Below are positions 7,878-15,908 of a stretch of DNA of 36,834 bases, piece after piece. The notes beneath the pieces were generated by a model that was not told the DNA's origin, searched no databases, and saw nothing but the letters and a program-made list of their open reading frames with translations. The stretch is from an uncultured Clostridia bacterium. GTDB lineage: Bacteria; Bacillota; Clostridia; Lachnospirales; CALKRZ01. Both the position numbers and the translations under genes were made by a program. Within the stretch, counting starts at the first letter, position 1. Every line of letters begins with the position of its first letter. Where the stretch lies: NCBI GenBank assembly GCA_937989765.1, contig CALKRZ010000072.1, positions 1 through 36,834 on the forward strand. Reading direction: 5' to 3'.

Positions 7878-7946
7878 AGCATCCCCCGATGATCATGATA
7901 TACCTATGGTACTAAATCATAAATCTTTTTGCAAGGCAAAAAACTG

Positions 7947-7975
7947 TTTACAATTTTATAAAAATAGAATATACT
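7947..7975 (+). promoter_or_regulatory. Sigma-A-like promoter for the trp operon: TTTACA-17 bp-TATACT
   Basis: TTTACA 7947-7952, TATACT 7970-7975. Confidence 0.75.
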
Positions 7976-7981
7976 ATATAT

Positions 7982-8394
7982 AACTTTATATGTTATGAAA
8001 ATCTATGATTGAAGAGAGTACTTTATGGAGCATGTTGCAGCGAGCCAGCGGCGGTGAGAGGTCTGGTACAAAGCACCTTAAAGGAATGGGTTCAGGAGAT
8101 GCTAGGCGAATAAGGCATAGGAATAAAATAACTATGAGAGTAACAGTTATTTTTCCCATACCTAAGTAGCTGATGCCGTGTCCTCACGTTACAGAGGCAG
8201 GATATCGAGTTTTTTACTCTGTATCCCTAGGAGAGAGTTACACTGTATAATTGGGTGGTTCGCGAATCAGTATTTCGTCCCAAGATGAAGTGCTTTTTTT
8301 ATTGCCATTTTTACAGTATTACTAATTTGGGTGGTACCGCGGAATATAGACCATTTCGTCCCAGAGCATGGGATGATGTGGTCTTTTTTTTAGT
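7982..8394 (+). ncRNA. T-box leader (predicted tRNA-Trp responsive) with two consecutive antiterminator/terminator modules
   Basis: Stem I motifs (gcagcgagcc...ggtctggt), candidate UGG specifier at 8087-8089 (ggaaTGGgttc), T-box 1 TTGGGTGGTTCGCG...CGTCCC and T-box 2 TTGGGTGGTACCGCGG...CGTCCC, each followed by a hairpin and T-run. Confidence 0.88.
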
Positions 8395-8436
8395 TGATTT
8401 TTATAGATCTGTTTTTTAGAAGAGAGGAAGATCGGG

Positions 8437-9840
8437 ATGAAAAATAAAGTATTGATTCCATATACCAAAGTACTTTCAGGAGATACGGAAACTCCTATCA
8501 CTTTATATCAGAAATATGTAGGCAAAGAGATCGGATTTCTTTTGGAAAGCAAAACCGAAGGAAAGGGACGATATTCTTTTCTAGGCAAAAATCCCTATGC
8601 AATCATCAAGGGACGAGAGAAGATTATGATTACACAGCAGGATGAGGAACTTTGCATGGAAGGTAAAGCCTTAGAAATCATTAAAGCGTATATGAGTCGC
8701 TTTGAAGTACGAGGCGGGGACGCTACTATGTTTATCGGAGGCGCTGTCGGAACGGTAGCATATGATGTGATCCGTCAGTATGAAAAGCTTCCTGCTATCA
8801 GTGATGATATTCTAAAAACCCCCGATGTGTATATGATGGTAGTGCTTCAGTTTATCACCTATGATCACTATCATGGGCGCATTATTTTGACCGTATTAGA
8901 AGAAGAATCAGAAGAAGGATCAAAAAGAGCAGATGCTCAGCTTAGTCAGATGGAAGAAGAGATTCAGGCACCCTATGAACTGCAATCCGATTCTCAGGAG
9001 CATATGGCTTTACGTATTCAGTCCAATATGACCAAAGAGGAGTATATGCAAAAAGTAAATAAAGCAAAGGAATATATATATGAAGGAGATATATTTCAAG
9101 TAGTCCTCTCACAGCGGTGGACGGTGGATACAAAGGAAGATCCATTTGTACTGTATCGGAGGCTACGAGCTGTAAATCCTTCACCTTATCTTTTTTACTT
9201 TAATTTTGGGGATGAGCAAGTGGCAGGAAGTTCACCAGAAATGTTGGTAGAAGTACGAGGAAATACAGTCTATACTTGCCCCATCGCGGGTACGCGAAAA
9301 AGAGGTAAGAATGAAAATGAGGATAGGGTGCTAGCAGAGGAACTGGGAAATGATCCTAAAGAGCAAGCAGAGCATGTGATGCTCGTAGATCTGGCTCGAA
9401 ATGATATGGGACGGATTGCGGCAATAGGTACAGTACAGGTAGTAGACTTTATGAAGGTACATTATTACTCCCATGTGATGCATCTAGTATCCTTAGTACA
9501 AGGAAAAAAACGCGAAGGACAGGACAGCTTCTCCATATTAGCTTCTTTTCTACCAGCAGGCACTTTATCAGGTGCCCCAAAAATTCGAGCCATGGAAATC
9601 ATCGAAGAACTAGAGCCAGAGCGGAGAGGATTGTACGGGGGAGCCGCAGGATATTTCGGATTTAATGGAGATATGGATATGTGTATAGCCATTCGTACCA
9701 TGGTGATCCGTGGAGAAAAGGTGTATATGCAAGCAGGGGCTGGCATTGTGGCAGATTCGGATCCAGAAAAAGAGTATGAAGAAAGTGAAAATAAAGTAAG
9801 GGCATTACTCAATGCCATCGGAAAGGGAGGAATAGTATGA
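8437..9840 (+). CDS. trpE: Anthranilate synthase component I
   Basis: GDIFQVVLSQRW, SPEMLVEVRG, GTLSGAPKIRAMEIIEELEP, QAGAGIVADSDPEKEYEE motifs. Confidence 0.96.
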   Translation: MKNKVLIPYTKVLSGDTETPITLYQKYVGKEIGFLLESKTEGKGRYSFLGKNPYAIIKGREKIMITQQDEELCMEGKALEIIKAYMSRFEVRGGDATMFIGGAVGTVAYDVIRQYEKLPAISDDILKTPDVYMMVVLQFITYDHYHGRIILTVLEEESEEGSKRADAQLSQMEEEIQAPYELQSDSQEHMALRIQSNMTKEEYMQKVNKAKEYIYEGDIFQVVLSQRWTVDTKEDPFVLYRRLRAVNPSPYLFYFNFGDEQVAGSSPEMLVEVRGNTVYTCPIAGTRKRGKNENEDRVLAEELGNDPKEQAEHVMLVDLARNDMGRIAAIGTVQVVDFMKVHYYSHVMHLVSLVQGKKREGQDSFSILASFLPAGTLSGAPKIRAMEIIEELEPERRGLYGGAAGYFGFNGDMDMCIAIRTMVIRGEKVYMQAGAGIVADSDPEKEYEESENKVRALLNAIGKGGIV

Positions 9841-10430
9841 TTTTACTCATTGATAATTATGATTCTTTTACCTATAACTTATATCAATATCTAGGTGAAC
9901 TTCATAAAGAGATCCAGGTAGTACGTCATGATGAAATATCTATACAGCAGATCAAAAGCTTATCCCCACAGTGCATTGTATTATCTCCTGGACCAAAGAC
10001 TCCTACAGAAGCGGGGATTTGTATGGAGGTAGTGCAGCAGCTTTCAGGGATGATTCCTATATTAGGCATTTGTCTAGGACATCAGTGTATTGCAGCCTCT
10101 TTTGGCGCTACCGTGACCTATGCAAAAAAACTATACCATGGAAAGACCTCTATGGTCACGCATACAGGGACGGGGATCTTTAAAAATCTGCCCAATCCGA
10201 TGGAAGTAGCCAGATATCACTCCCTAGCCGTGCTGCCTCATACGCTGCCAGAAGAGCTTATCGTTACAGCCCAAACAGAGGATGGCGAGGTAATGGCAAT
10301 CACCCATAAGACCTATCCTTTGGTAGGATTACAGTTTCATCCAGAATCAATTTATACCCCTGAGGGGAAACAACTGATCAAGAACTTTTTGGAAGGGGTG
10401 AATGCATATGTTATACAAACAAATGGATAA
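9837..10430 (+). CDS. trpG: Anthranilate synthase component II (glutamine amidotransferase)
   Basis: MILLIDNYDSFTYNLYQYLGEL, LGICLGHQCIAASFG, QFHPESIYTPEG. Overlaps the trpE stop by 4 bp. Confidence 0.96.
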   Translation: MILLIDNYDSFTYNLYQYLGELHKEIQVVRHDEISIQQIKSLSPQCIVLSPGPKTPTEAGICMEVVQQLSGMIPILGICLGHQCIAASFGATVTYAKKLYHGKTSMVTHTGTGIFKNLPNPMEVARYHSLAVLPHTLPEELIVTAQTEDGEVMAITHKTYPLVGLQFHPESIYTPEGKQLIKNFLEGVNAYVIQTNG

Positions 10431-11427
10431 ATTACTAGAAGGCAGTCACCTTACAGAAGAAGAGATGACCGATGCTATGGAAGCCATCATGGAAGGAGAA
10501 GTGCCCGAAGTAGTACTGGGCAGTTTTCTTACGGCACTGCGGATCAAAGGAGAAGGGATTACCGAATTGACCGCGGGAGCCAAGGTCATGCGGAACAAAG
10601 CAGAAAAGATGGAACTAGCAGGATTATACACGGTGGATACTTGTGGTACAGGTGGGGATTGCGCAGGTACGTATAATATTTCTACGGCGGTAGCTTTTAT
10701 CGCAGCCGCAGCAGGAATCCATGTGGCAAAGCACGGCAATCGTTCCGTTTCTAGCAAAAGTGGTAGCGCGGATGTACTAGAGGCGCTGGGTGCTGTGATT
10801 ACGCTATCTCCACAGCAAGTAGCTAGTTCTGTACACAAGCATCATATCGGTTTTTTGTTTGCACCCGTATTCCATAAAGCGATGAAGCATGCCATAGGTG
10901 TCCGAAGAGCCTTAGGATTTCGCACTGTATTTAATATGCTAGGACCTCTTACCAACCCTGCAGAAGCCAAAGGACAGGTTATGGGCGTATATGATCAAAG
11001 TCTTACAGAGGCGATGGCAGCAGTGCTGAAAAACCTAGGCACGGATCATGCGCTTGTCGTGCACGGTATGGATGGACTGGATGAGATCACCACTACAACG
11101 CAAACCAAGGTTACAGAATTAAAGGATGGCATATTGCATACCTATTATATAACTCCAGAGCAATTTGGGATGAGTAGAAGTAACTTGGAAGACTTGCGAG
11201 GGGGCAGTGCAGTAGAAAATGCAGCTATCATCAGAGCACTCCTGCAAGGAGAACAGGGACCCAAGCGAGAAATTCTTCTGCTAAATAGTGGGGCAGCACT
11301 GTATGTAGGCAAAAAGGCGAACAGTCTTGGTGATGGAATCAAGCTAGCAGCCACATTGATCGATACGGGAATGGCAATGGAAAAAATGAATGAATATATC
11401 GACTTTACCAAAAGTATTGCAAGTTAG
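10408..11427 (+). CDS. trpD: Anthranilate phosphoribosyltransferase
   Basis: VDTCGTGGDCAGTYNIST, AKHGNRSVSSKSGSADVLEALG. Start at 10408 (MLYKQMDKLL) or 10402; overlaps trpG. Confidence 0.95.
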   Translation: MLYKQMDKLLEGSHLTEEEMTDAMEAIMEGEVPEVVLGSFLTALRIKGEGITELTAGAKVMRNKAEKMELAGLYTVDTCGTGGDCAGTYNISTAVAFIAAAAGIHVAKHGNRSVSSKSGSADVLEALGAVITLSPQQVASSVHKHHIGFLFAPVFHKAMKHAIGVRRALGFRTVFNMLGPLTNPAEAKGQVMGVYDQSLTEAMAAVLKNLGTDHALVVHGMDGLDEITTTTQTKVTELKDGILHTYYITPEQFGMSRSNLEDLRGGSAVENAAIIRALLQGEQGPKREILLLNSGAALYVGKKANSLGDGIKLAATLIDTGMAMEKMNEYIDFTKSIAS

Positions 11428-11482
11428 GGCATAAGATGGTATCATTAGCAAAAATATTCAACCAATAGAAGGAGAGATAAAT

Positions 11483-12496
11483 ATGATCGTAGTCATGAAA
11501 TCCAGCGCAACCACAGAACAAATAGAAAAGGTAGAAAACCGTTTGATAAGATTAGGATTTAAAACCCATCCTATTCATGGAGAAAAAAGTACAGTTATCG
11601 GTGCGATTGGAGATAAAACTGTGTTAAGCCAAGAATCCATCATCAATATGGATGGAGTAGAAACCATCATGCCTATTACAAAGCCTTATAAACTCATTAG
11701 TAGAGAACTTGTCAAAGGGAATACTACGGTCACTGTAGGAAATGTCCTCGTAGGAGGAGATGAAATCATCCTTTTTGCAGGACCTTGTGCCGTAGAAAGT
11801 GAAGAACAATATATTACCTCAGCGCTCAAGGTGAAAGAAGCAGGCGGGCACATTTTACGAGGGGGTGCTTTCAAACCTCGTACATCTCCTTATGCTTTTC
11901 AAGGACTAGAAGAAGCAGGACTGAAGATCATGGCCCAAGCAAGAGAAATCACAGGGTTACCTTTTGTAACAGAAGTAGTGGATACGCGTGATGTAGAGTT
12001 AGTCGCAAAATATGCCGATATGATTCAGATCGGCGCTCGTAATATGCAGAACTTTAGACTGCTGACAGAAGTAGGGAAAACTAAAAAACCCGTATTATTA
12101 AAAAGAGGCTTGGCTGCGACTATAGAAGAATGGTTAATGTCAGCAGAATATATTATCGCAGAGGGCAATGCAGATATTATCCTTTGTGAAAGAGGAATTC
12201 GTACCTATGAAACCACCACCAGAAATACACTTGATATCAGTGCGATCCCTGTGATCAAAGAATTAACCCATCTGCCCATCGTAGTAGATCCAAGTCATGC
12301 GACAGGAAAACGTCAATGGATCCCAGCTCTATCGAATGCGAGTATCGCAGCAGGAGCGGATGGTCTTATTATCGAAGTGCATCATAACCCTTGTGAAGCC
12401 CTATGTGATGGACCACAATCTCTAGATCCTGAGCAGTTTAGGAGTGTCGTAAAAGCACTTAAGCCTATTGCAGCGGCGGTAGGACGAAAGCTATGA
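11483..12496 (+). CDS. aroF: 3-deoxy-7-phosphoheptulonate synthase (DAHP synthase, type with N-terminal ferredoxin-like domain)
   Basis: IILFAGPCAVESEEQ, GGAFKPRTSPYAFQGL, LPIVVDPSHATGKR; N-terminal ~70 aa extension. Confidence 0.92.
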   Translation: MIVVMKSSATTEQIEKVENRLIRLGFKTHPIHGEKSTVIGAIGDKTVLSQESIINMDGVETIMPITKPYKLISRELVKGNTTVTVGNVLVGGDEIILFAGPCAVESEEQYITSALKVKEAGGHILRGGAFKPRTSPYAFQGLEEAGLKIMAQAREITGLPFVTEVVDTRDVELVAKYADMIQIGARNMQNFRLLTEVGKTKKPVLLKRGLAATIEEWLMSAEYIIAEGNADIILCERGIRTYETTTRNTLDISAIPVIKELTHLPIVVDPSHATGKRQWIPALSNASIAAGADGLIIEVHHNPCEALCDGPQSLDPEQFRSVVKALKPIAAAVGRKL

Positions 12497-13281
12497 GTAT
12501 TCTCCACGACATCGTAGAGAAAAAAAAGCAGACACTGGCTCTTCAAAAAGAAAATGCACAAATTGATATATGGGAGCAAACGATCCAAGGCATGCCCAAG
12601 CCGCCTAGTTTTTATGAGGCGATAGCAAAAAAAGGTCTGTCCATCATTGGGGAGATCAAAAAAGCATCTCCCTCCAAAGGTATTATAAGAGAAGATTTTG
12701 ACCCAGTAGAACTAGCGAGAGAGTATGGAGATGTGGTAGATGCCTTATCTGTATTAACAGAAGAGCATTTTTTCATGGGAAGCCCCACATATCTACAGCA
12801 AGTTCGTCAAGTGACGGCGCTCCCTCTTCTTCGAAAGGATTTTATCATTGATCCGATACAGATTTATGAAGCCAGAATACTAGGCGCTAGCTGTATACTC
12901 CTCATTACAGCCATATTATCAGAAGAACAACTGAGAGACTATATAAAGCTAGCTACAGCGCTACAAATGGATGCGCTCGTAGAAGTCCATACAGCAGCAG
13001 AAGTAGAAAAAGCACTGGCAGTGGGGTCCAAGATCATAGGCATTAACAACCGCAATCTGGAAGATTTTTCGATCACCCTAGATACGACGATACAATTACG
13101 ACAGAAGATTCCACAGGATATACTTATTATCAGCGAAAGTGGTATTGATTCACAAAAAGACCTGATGACTTTAGGTGCAGTGCATATAGATGGCATACTG
13201 GTAGGCGAAAGCTTTATGAAGGCACAGAGTATCACAGAGAAGGCAGAGGAGTTTAGACGAGGATACGATAGCACAAAGTAA
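12493..13281 (+). CDS. trpC: Indole-3-glycerol phosphate synthase
   Basis: IGEIKKASPSKGIIREDFDP, LLRKDFIIDPIQIYEAR, GINNRNLEDF, ISESGI. Confidence 0.95.
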   Translation: MSILHDIVEKKKQTLALQKENAQIDIWEQTIQGMPKPPSFYEAIAKKGLSIIGEIKKASPSKGIIREDFDPVELAREYGDVVDALSVLTEEHFFMGSPTYLQQVRQVTALPLLRKDFIIDPIQIYEARILGASCILLITAILSEEQLRDYIKLATALQMDALVEVHTAAEVEKALAVGSKIIGINNRNLEDFSITLDTTIQLRQKIPQDILIISESGIDSQKDLMTLGAVHIDGILVGESFMKAQSITEKAEEFRRGYDSTK

Positions 13282-13328
13282 GATTTGTGGTGCGTATGAT
13301 TTCTCAGTGGATAAGGGGTGGTCAAGAT

Positions 13329-13949
13329 ATGGTAGTGCAAATTAAGATCTGTGGACTACGTACGATAGAAGATATACAGATGATCAATGAACTAGATGTA
13401 CAGTATATCGGATTTGTGTTTGCACCCAGCCGACGACAGATCACACCTGAACAGGCTCAAAAAATGAGAAAAGAGGTAAGGCGAGACATCCAGACGGTAG
13501 GGGTATTCGTCAATACTCCTGCTGTGGAAGTCAATCGCATTGCAGAAATAAGTAGACTAGACATTGCCCAACTCCATGGGGAAGAGTCACCAGAAGCATG
13601 TACCAAGGTTCATATCCCCGTATGGAAAGCCATCGCAGTAAAGGACACACAAAGTTTTAGCAGTATGGATCAGTATCGCAGTGCGCAGGGCTTTGTACTA
13701 GATACGTATAGCAAAGAGGCAAAAGGGGGAACGGGTAAAACCTTCTCATGGGAATGGGCGGCAGGGCTGTCAGAAAAGCATTGGATCATTTTGGGCGGTG
13801 GACTCCATGCTCAAAATGTGCAGCAAGCCCTCCAAAGGGTAGCCCCTCAGATCGTAGATGTAAGCTCAGGGGTAGAGAGCGAAGGAAGAAAAGACAGAGA
13901 AAAAGTCTGTCAGTTTGTGAGGAAGGTGAGAGAATATGAAGCTAGATAG
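13329..13949 (+). CDS. trpF: Phosphoribosylanthranilate isomerase
   Basis: [41 protein letters not shown] at 13329 preferred over the GTG at 13287. Confidence 0.93.
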
Positions 13950-15120
13950 GAAATTTGGAAGCTTCGGAGGACAGTATGTACCAGAAACACTGATGAATCC
14001 GCTGATCGAATTAGAGGAAGCATTCAAAGAATACTGTAGTACAGAAGCGTTTCAGAAAGAATATATGTATTATCTCAAACAATATGTAGGCAGACCCACC
14101 TCTTTATATTTTGCAGAAAAATTAACCCGTACATGTGGGGGTGCTAAGATTTATCTCAAACGTGAGGATCTAAACCACACAGGCGCACACAAGATCAATA
14201 ATGTCATCGGACAACTCCTACTTGCCAAAAAAATGGGTAAAACCAAAGTCATCGCAGAAACAGGAGCAGGACAGCATGGCGTTGCCACTGCGACTGGGGC
14301 GGCATTATTTGGAATGGAATGCACTGTATTTATGGGAGAAGAGGACATCGAAAGACAGCGGCTGAATGTATTCCGAATGGAGCTTTTGGGTGCTACAGTC
14401 CAACCAGTAAGCTCAGGCACAAAAACCTTGAAAGATGCTACCAATGAAGCGATTCGGGAATGGGTCAGATGTGCAGAGGATACCTTTTATGTCATCGGAT
14501 CGGTAGTAGGCCCTCATCCCTATCCCACGATGGTACGTACCTTCCAAAAAATCATTGGAGAAGAAACAAAAAAGCAGATCATGGAAGCAGAAGGAGCACT
14601 CCCCCAAGCACTGATTGCCTGTGTGGGAGGAGGAAGTAATTCTATGGGACTTTTTTATCCATTTATCAAAGATACGACGGTCAAAATGTTCGGGGTAGAA
14701 GCAGCAGGGCACGGCATAGAAACTAAACAGCATGCAGCCGCCTTTGCAGAAGGACGAGTAGGCGTACTGCACGGAATGAAAACCTACCTCCTACAGGATG
14801 CAGAAGGGCAGATCCTACCCGCCCATTCCATCTCCGCAGGGCTAGACTATCCAGGGGTAGGGCCAGAACATGCCTATCTATATGAAAACAAACGAGTAGA
14901 GTATACATCCATCACAGATACAGAAGCCATGGACGCTTTTCAACTGCTCGCTAAGCAAGAAGGCATTATCCCAGCTATAGAAAGTGCCCATGCCATCGCT
15001 TATGGCTGCAAATTGGCACCCAGTATGCAGGCGGATGAAGTCATCGTGATCTGTCTGTCTGGCAGGGGAGACAAGGATGTGCATACAGCGGCACAGTATC
15101 TAGAAAGTACGAGGGTATAA
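13936..15120 (+). CDS. trpB: Tryptophan synthase beta chain
   Basis: [48 protein letters not shown]. Confidence 0.97.
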
Positions 15121-15131
15121 GGAGGGGCGAT

Positions 15132-15908
15132 ATGAATCGTATAGAAATGCAGTTCAAAAAGCTTAAAGAAAAAGATAAGAAGGCTTTGATCACCTATATT
15201 ACAGCAGGAGACCCTGATATTCATACTACAGAGCAGCTGATCTATGCAAAGGAGCGGGCAGGAGCGCATATTATTGAGATCGGCATCCCTTTTTCTGATC
15301 CCTTGGCAGATGGCCCTGTGATTCAACGTGCCGCACAGAGAGCACTAGAGCGGGGCATTACCCTGCAGCAGATCTTTGACTGTGTAGATAGCGTGCGCGC
15401 TCATACGCAGATCCCCTTGGTTTTTTTAGTGTACTATAATACGATACTGGCATATGGTGTAGGTGCATTTATCAATAAATGTGAACAAACAGGTATAGAT
15501 GGACTGATTATTCCTGATCTACCCCTAGAAGAAAGAGAAGAAATCCTACCTGCTATTCAAAACTCCGCGGTGGCATTGATTCCCCTAGTATCCATTACTT
15601 CAAGAGATAGAATCTCCGCTGTCGTACAAAATGGGCGGGGATTCGTATACTGTATATCTTCCCTCGGAGTTACGGGTGTGCGCCAAGATTTTAGAGAAGA
15701 TCTGAATGAATTTTTAGGTGCTGTCCGTCAAGCGACAGACTTGCCTTTAGCGATTGGATTTGGCATATCTACGAGAGAAGATATAGAGAGATTTAGCCCG
15801 TATGTAGATGCCGTGATCGTAGGATCAGCTATCGTACAGCAGGTAGAAGAATGCGGTGGAGATGTGGATCGGGTAGAAGCGTTTGTAAAGAATTTGGTGG
15901 TGGGGTAG
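15132..15908 (+). CDS. trpA: Tryptophan synthase alpha chain
   Basis: ITYITAGDPD, IEIGIPFSDPLADGPVIQRAAQRAL, IPDLPLEE, GFGIST. Confidence 0.96.
   Translation: MNRIEMQFKKLKEKDKKALITYITAGDPDIHTTEQLIYAKERAGAHIIEIGIPFSDPLADGPVIQRAAQRALERGITLQQIFDCVDSVRAHTQIPLVFLVYYNTILAYGVGAFINKCEQTGIDGLIIPDLPLEEREEILPAIQNSAVALIPLVSITSRDRISAVVQNGRGFVYCISSLGVTGVRQDFREDLNEFLGAVRQATDLPLAIGFGISTREDIERFSPYVDAVIVGSAIVQQVEECGGDVDRVEAFVKNLVVG

Follow-up and report, generated by a model that had tools for sequence, protein, structure and literature searches.

Organisation of the trp leader

The window, a 36,834-nucleotide stretch of DNA from an uncultured Clostridia bacterium, carries a trp operon, trpEGD-aroF-trpCFBA, preceded by a leader of ~450 nt in which a T-box leader with one Stem I spans 7996-8392 (Table 1). 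A DAHP synthase gene of the aroF type (NCBIfam NF006421, 11483-12496) sits between trpD and trpC within the operon. The position of a promoter-like site upstream of the T-box is only suggestive, because the count of such sites is not above chance.

A permissive Rfam search matched RF00230 once, at 7996-8366 and over the full length of the model (1-219), with 79 bits and an E-value of 1.6e-17. This score falls under the curated gathering cut-off of 93 bits, and hence a scan at the default cut-off did not match the leader. In the best parse, Stem I, Stem II and Stem IIA/B follow one another in order, then comes a 74-nt insert and then the canonical T-box UGGUACCGCG; the insert is the module-1 region described below, with an additional antiterminator and terminator. 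No second Stem I was found with RF00230 in 7900-8445, and the 26-nt gap between the modules (8301-8326, from the U-run of terminator 1 to module 2) leaves no room for one. The leader is therefore distinct from the fully tandem form, which has a complete Stem I for each module.

The specifier UGG, together with the tRNA-Trp encoded in the same genome (anticodon CCA, 3' end GCCA), indicates that the leader reads Trp. The UGGU of both modules can pair with the GCCA end, with a G-U pair at the discriminator base. Among the 13 credible T-boxes of the genome, the trp leader is the sole one in which a doubled module was seen. By its sequence, the leader is most likely a tRNA-Trp riboswitch of the class I T-box type, partially tandem in form.

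Two hairpins depart from the Rfam model or from the relatives. In the window leader, Stem II contains an AU-rich hairpin of ~48 nt (8113-8165), which is absent from the relatives inspected. Between Stem IIA/B and Stem III, a hairpin of the form ~GGRUAUCGA...UCCGUAYC is conserved in sequence in trp leaders class-wide; it corresponds to 8200-8226 in the window, occurs also in the leaders L167, L172 and L185, and is a mere insert in the Rfam model. This hairpin may be an unmodelled, trp-specific T-box element.

Table 1. Features of the trp leader and operon, with positions numbered from the first letter of the window.
Feature	Positions	Strand	Basis
Promoter-like site TTTACA-17-TATACT	7947-7975	+	Consensus scan, 10/12 matches
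Stem I, single; specifier UGG (Trp) at 8087-8089	7996-8100	+	Rfam RF00230 alignment; tRNA-Trp(CCA)
Stem II with long AU-rich hairpin insert, and Stem IIA/B region	8097-8196	+	Rfam alignment; sequence
Hairpin GGAUAUCGAG...CUCUGUAUCC in the interval from IIA/B to Stem III	8200-8226	+	Fold -11.2 kcal/mol; recurs in related trp leaders
GAGAG, candidate RRRxG purine string 5' of Stem III, single copy	8231-8235	+	Rfam alignment to consensus AAGuG; motif from PMC7583486
Putative Stem III 5' strand AGUUACACUGU, common to both modules	8236-8246	+	Rfam parse; MFE fold; leader-specific pairing tests
Antiterminator 1: A1 UUGGG/CCCAA (5' strand 8251-8255), bulge UGGUUC (UGGU 8256-8259), A2 GCGAA/UUCGU; CGUCCCAA ends at 8283	8251-8283	+	Fold -7.6 to -7.7 kcal/mol; A1-1 covariation, 22 leaders
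Terminator 1: 11-bp stem 8269-8294, loop CCAA, U-run	8269-8300	+	Fold -11.6 kcal/mol; terminator scan; leader-specific T1 halves
Putative second Stem III 3' strand ACAGUAUUACU, then AA, ahead of module 2	8313-8325	+	9/11 pairs with 8236-8246; Rfam Stem III parse; family-wide tests
Antiterminator 2, canonical: A1 5' strand UUGGG from 8327, bulge UGGUACC 8332-8338, A1 3' strand CCCAGA 8360-8365	8326-8365	+	Rfam alignment; fold -9.8 kcal/mol
Terminator 2: stem-loop 8348-8384, U-run	8348-8391	+	Fold -23.7 kcal/mol; terminator scan
Operon trpE-trpG-trpD-aroF (DAHP synthase)-trpC-trpF-trpB-trpA	8437-15908	+	NCBIfam

Two antiterminator/terminator modules behind one Stem I

The window leader has two complete antiterminator/terminator modules behind its one Stem I. 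Module 1 reads UUGGG-UGGUUC-GCGAA...UUCGU-CCCAA, with a relaxed bulge of 6 nt, whereas module 2 has the canonical 7-nt bulge of the UGGNACC type. A terminator scan returned exactly two sites, one for each module, against 0.3 expected in shuffles. From the predicted folds, terminator 1 is the weaker of the two, at -11.6 compared with -23.7 kcal/mol.

A preliminary description of this DNA had claimed two consecutive modules behind a single Stem I, the first with an 11-bp hairpin, a CCAA loop and a T-run, and the one RF00230 match and the two terminators bear it out. It had also described the two T-box cores as different, for which the bulge of module 1 is corrected here to UGGUUC, and had placed the modules about 25 nt apart; the measured spacing is 26 nt. 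A second Stem I between the modules, which it had named as a finding that would speak against it, did not appear in the Rfam covariance search. Likewise, the comparison with leaders of related species for which it called showed both modules to be conserved in them.

A putative Stem III strand shared across module 1

In the window, 5'-AGUUACACUGU can form 9 of 11 pairs with 5'-ACAGUAUUACU, which lies at 8313-8323; GAGAG precedes the first strand, and AA and then helix A1-2 follow the second. The Rfam parse pairs the first part of 8236-8246 with 8317-8323 across module 1, and the MFE fold of 8225-8345 contains most of the 8236-8246/8313-8323 helix. The 26-nt segment upstream of module 2 does not fold by itself into a local Stem III. 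Weighing against the proposed sharing, the local Stem III of module 1 in the window has ~3 bp at best. For the window alone, the pairing of the two strands gave p ~0.08 against shuffles, and the case for a shared Stem III therefore rests on the family.

A strict DNA pattern of the tandem signature, run across 391 genomes of the class, returned only the window and two chance matches. This pattern was too strict, and trpE leaders were therefore gathered through the TrpE protein and the sequence upstream of it. A family search centred on the genome G082 (family f6) gave no tandem leaders.

For the pairing test, the segments of 14-30 nt before each A1 helix (P1 and P2) were compared between true and permuted leader pairs. 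With 14-nt flanks, the 21 leaders of this order gave -4.4 kcal/mol as against -2.3 kcal/mol for permuted pairs (z -5.6, 0/20,000), while two control segments gave z values of +0.7 and -0.2. The result held at p < 0.005 for each of several flank lengths tried (14-30 nt), with the shortest flanks strongest, at p <= 2e-4 with one leader per genus (14- and 17-nt flanks) and at z ~-4 against dinucleotide shuffles; after splitting of the set, p was ~0.06 in each half. In an independent set of nine leaders from outside the order, 20-nt flanks gave -11.5 compared with -6.3 kcal/mol (0/50,000, shuffle z -6.8), a stronger signal than within the order. Computation thus shows the sharing of the Stem III strand to be a conserved, leader-specific pairing in the family.

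Within the order the signal comes from family f24, from the window and from individual leaders, among them L040, L082 and L090. Much of family f22 shows it weakly, and several leaders of that family (e.g. L072, L075, L079, L080 and L084) show it weakly or not at all. The leaders L084, L086 and L088 are very compact, with only 8 nt between terminator 1 and antiterminator 2, too few to accommodate a long 3' strand for a second Stem III.

Individual leaders illustrate both uses of the 5' strand. In L167, AGAUGAUUAUACUAUCA pairs with GAUAGUAGGAUCAUC, and in L164, AAGUG-AGCAAAUGCU pairs with AGCAAUUGCU-AAA. In L185, AGACG has two possible partners: CGUCU-AAC, which is local and precedes module 1, and GGUCU-AAA, which precedes module 2 and leaves one mismatch. 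In the window and L164, the Stem III drawn by Rfam spans module 1; in L185 and L172, Rfam uses the same 5' strand locally, at module 1. From these parses and pairings, the repeated unit in such leaders is Stem III 3' strand-AA-antiterminator-terminator: the predicted 5' strand and its purine string are present once, and the 3' strand is duplicated with each module. The idea that P2 simply duplicates an entire Stem III hairpin, able to pair with itself, was rejected for most leaders, in which P2 alone gives a weak local hairpin or none (0 to ~-2 kcal/mol); L070 and L071 are exceptions, with a local hairpin of -5.6 kcal/mol.

The same helix could be read as no more than a spacer, or a clamp, by which module 1 is looped out. 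The modules would then act in series, with no Stem III identity and no hand-over of the tRNA, and possibly with a separate tRNA binding event for each decision. Any helix at this place would reduce the distance to module 2, and in f24 and L040 the helix directly abuts A1-1 with no obvious RRRxG string, a motif that is not evident in all leaders. However, a purine string does precede the helix in the window, L082, L090, L164, L172, L174 and L185, all eleven leaders of the independent set, like the window, have AA ahead of A1-2, and Rfam's own Stem III coincides with the helix. We consider the spacer explanation unlikely, and favour a Stem III strand that is shared.

Selection on module 1

Across 22 distinct leaders, pairing in helix A1-1 is intact in 97.3% of cells. 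In ten cells both sides have changed (GGG/CCC, GAG/CUC, AAG/CUU), with GC/AU exchange at two positions, and this covariation was reached by 0/500 shuffles. The 3' strand of A1-1 is located in or beside the loop of terminator 1, where the terminator does not need it, and its complementarity is therefore kept for antiterminator 1. Furthermore, the halves of terminator 1 match in a leader-specific manner (z -6.9), and the UGG of module 1 is invariant across the 22 aligned leaders, which were recognised partly by UGG itself. The A1-1 covariation indicates that selection maintains module 1 as a switch. In many leaders, the 3' part of the module-1 bulge and its helix A2 are either relaxed or not present, whereas the regular 7-nt bulge and A2 of module 2 are mostly retained; module 1 looks like a compact, weaker form of the switch.

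Such relaxation would also fit a module 1 that is a duplicate in decay, or an attenuator insensitive to tRNA whose sole effect is to lower basal readthrough while module 2 regulates. The relaxed bulges (UGGUUC in the window; UGGCUAA, UGGCAUA and UGGUUA elsewhere), the short or missing helix A2 in several leaders and the weaker terminator 1 all fit this explanation, as does L083 (genome G195), in which module 1 has a terminator-like hairpin and a U-run with no clear antiterminator and is perhaps a constitutive attenuator ahead of a normal module. Decay is nevertheless disfavoured by the A1-1 covariation: complementarity and UGG are kept throughout the aligned leaders, the changes in A1-1 compensate, and the architecture is maintained over a deep TrpE tree. 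We regard decay or insensitivity of module 1 as improbable, more so than the spacer explanation.

Distribution and evolution of the double module

Within the order, two modules behind one leader were found in families f1 (that of the window), f14, f21, f22 and f24, the last of which includes genomes labelled Candidatus Epulonipiscium. Near trpE, the leaders of family f11 carry either a single module or no module. On the TrpE tree, the double-module state requires two changes, at the base of f11 and in genome G047, and the tree is readable as a double module that is ancestral to several families of the order and was lost at least twice. The single module of L089, from G047, has an antiterminator in which a module-1 5' arm (UUUGAG) is joined to a module-2 3' arm (CGUCCCAA), such as a deletion or recombination between two modules would leave.

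Nine families outside the order (f28, f45, f47, f54, f64, f68, f89, f92 and f98) also have trpE leaders of the partially tandem kind, and each of the seven outside-order leaders scanned with Rfam gave exactly one T-box match. A chance arrangement in one genome, or an assembly artefact of a fragmented draft (244 contigs, 80% complete), is extremely improbable, being contradicted by the same architecture in the trpE leaders of several families of the order and of these nine.

Proposed mechanism

In T-boxes of solved structure, Stem III is essential for the sensing of tRNA. A review (PMC7583486) reports that Stem III with its flanks (5'-RRRxG-StemIII-AA-3') is indispensable if the 3' end of the tRNA is to be read, and that an antiterminator by itself has hardly any affinity for tRNA. 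A second antiterminator without a Stem III of its own is thus a puzzle, to which the shared-strand pairing offers a concrete structural answer.

We think it fairly probable that the leader works as a serial gate, in which one sensor and the shared Stem III 5' strand serve two successive discriminator/terminator modules. Uncharged tRNA-Trp would dock on Stem I, its GCCA end would pair with the UGGU of module 1, and the tRNA would hold antiterminator 1 so that the polymerase passes terminator 1. The emerging 8313-8323 would take over the Stem III 5' strand at 8236-8246, and this strand exchange would loop out module 1 and place antiterminator 2 beside the same tRNA, for a second decision. Charged tRNA would fail at either module, so that the probability of readthrough would be about that of passing one module multiplied by that of passing the other. 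Coarse gating may fall to module 1, which is compact and weaker, and tight gating to the strong module 2, with less leakage and a steeper response as the expected effect.

Termination at both sites, the hand-over of the tRNA and a sharper response are what we infer for this leader, and the tighter or graded control that the preliminary description expected of two modules would be of the same kind. Its suggestion of a single Stem I for two decisions stands; it missed the sharing of Stem III, which bears on how one tRNA might serve both modules. We would extend the scheme to partially tandem T-boxes generally with evenly divided confidence: these would have a single Stem III 5' strand and purine string, a local 3' strand followed by a duplicated one, and one tRNA handed on.

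Comparison with known systems

Like other class I T-boxes (RF00230), the window leader has a Stem I with a UGG specifier, Stem II, Stem IIA/B, Stem III and a UGGN antiterminator competing with an intrinsic terminator ahead of a trp operon. It differs in the second antiterminator/terminator module, scoring 79 bits where the cut-off is 93, with the module-1 region as an insert. A class of T-boxes with duplicated terminator-antiterminator elements was reportedly defined by Vitreschak et al. in 2008 (RNA).

Judged by its letters, the window leader belongs to the known, rare partially tandem class, with one Stem I and two terminator-antiterminator elements, and the preliminary description rightly warned that such an architecture might not be new. 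Examples of double T-boxes have been published (PMC9413887, PMC12452182), and the form with one Stem I is termed "partially tandem", with its mode of action stated as unknown in a 2020 review (PMC7583486). The shared Stem III strand is new as far as the literature searched shows; no account of Stem III sharing in partially tandem T-boxes was found in that search, which did not take in Vitreschak et al. 2008.

The fully tandem T-boxes of trp operons (PMC12452182) also place two successive T-box decisions ahead of trpE. However, they are complete sensor-plus-platform units, whereas the window leader has just one copy of Stem I, of Stem II and of the Stem III 5' strand. Tandem pseudo-cooperative riboswitches (reviewed in PMC9481103) share the expectation that serial terminators sharpen the response, but they duplicate the aptamer, while the window leader duplicates the expression platform and keeps a single sensor. 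The platform rather than the sensor can thus, it would seem, be duplicated to sharpen control, in a form readable as ancestral to several bacterial families.
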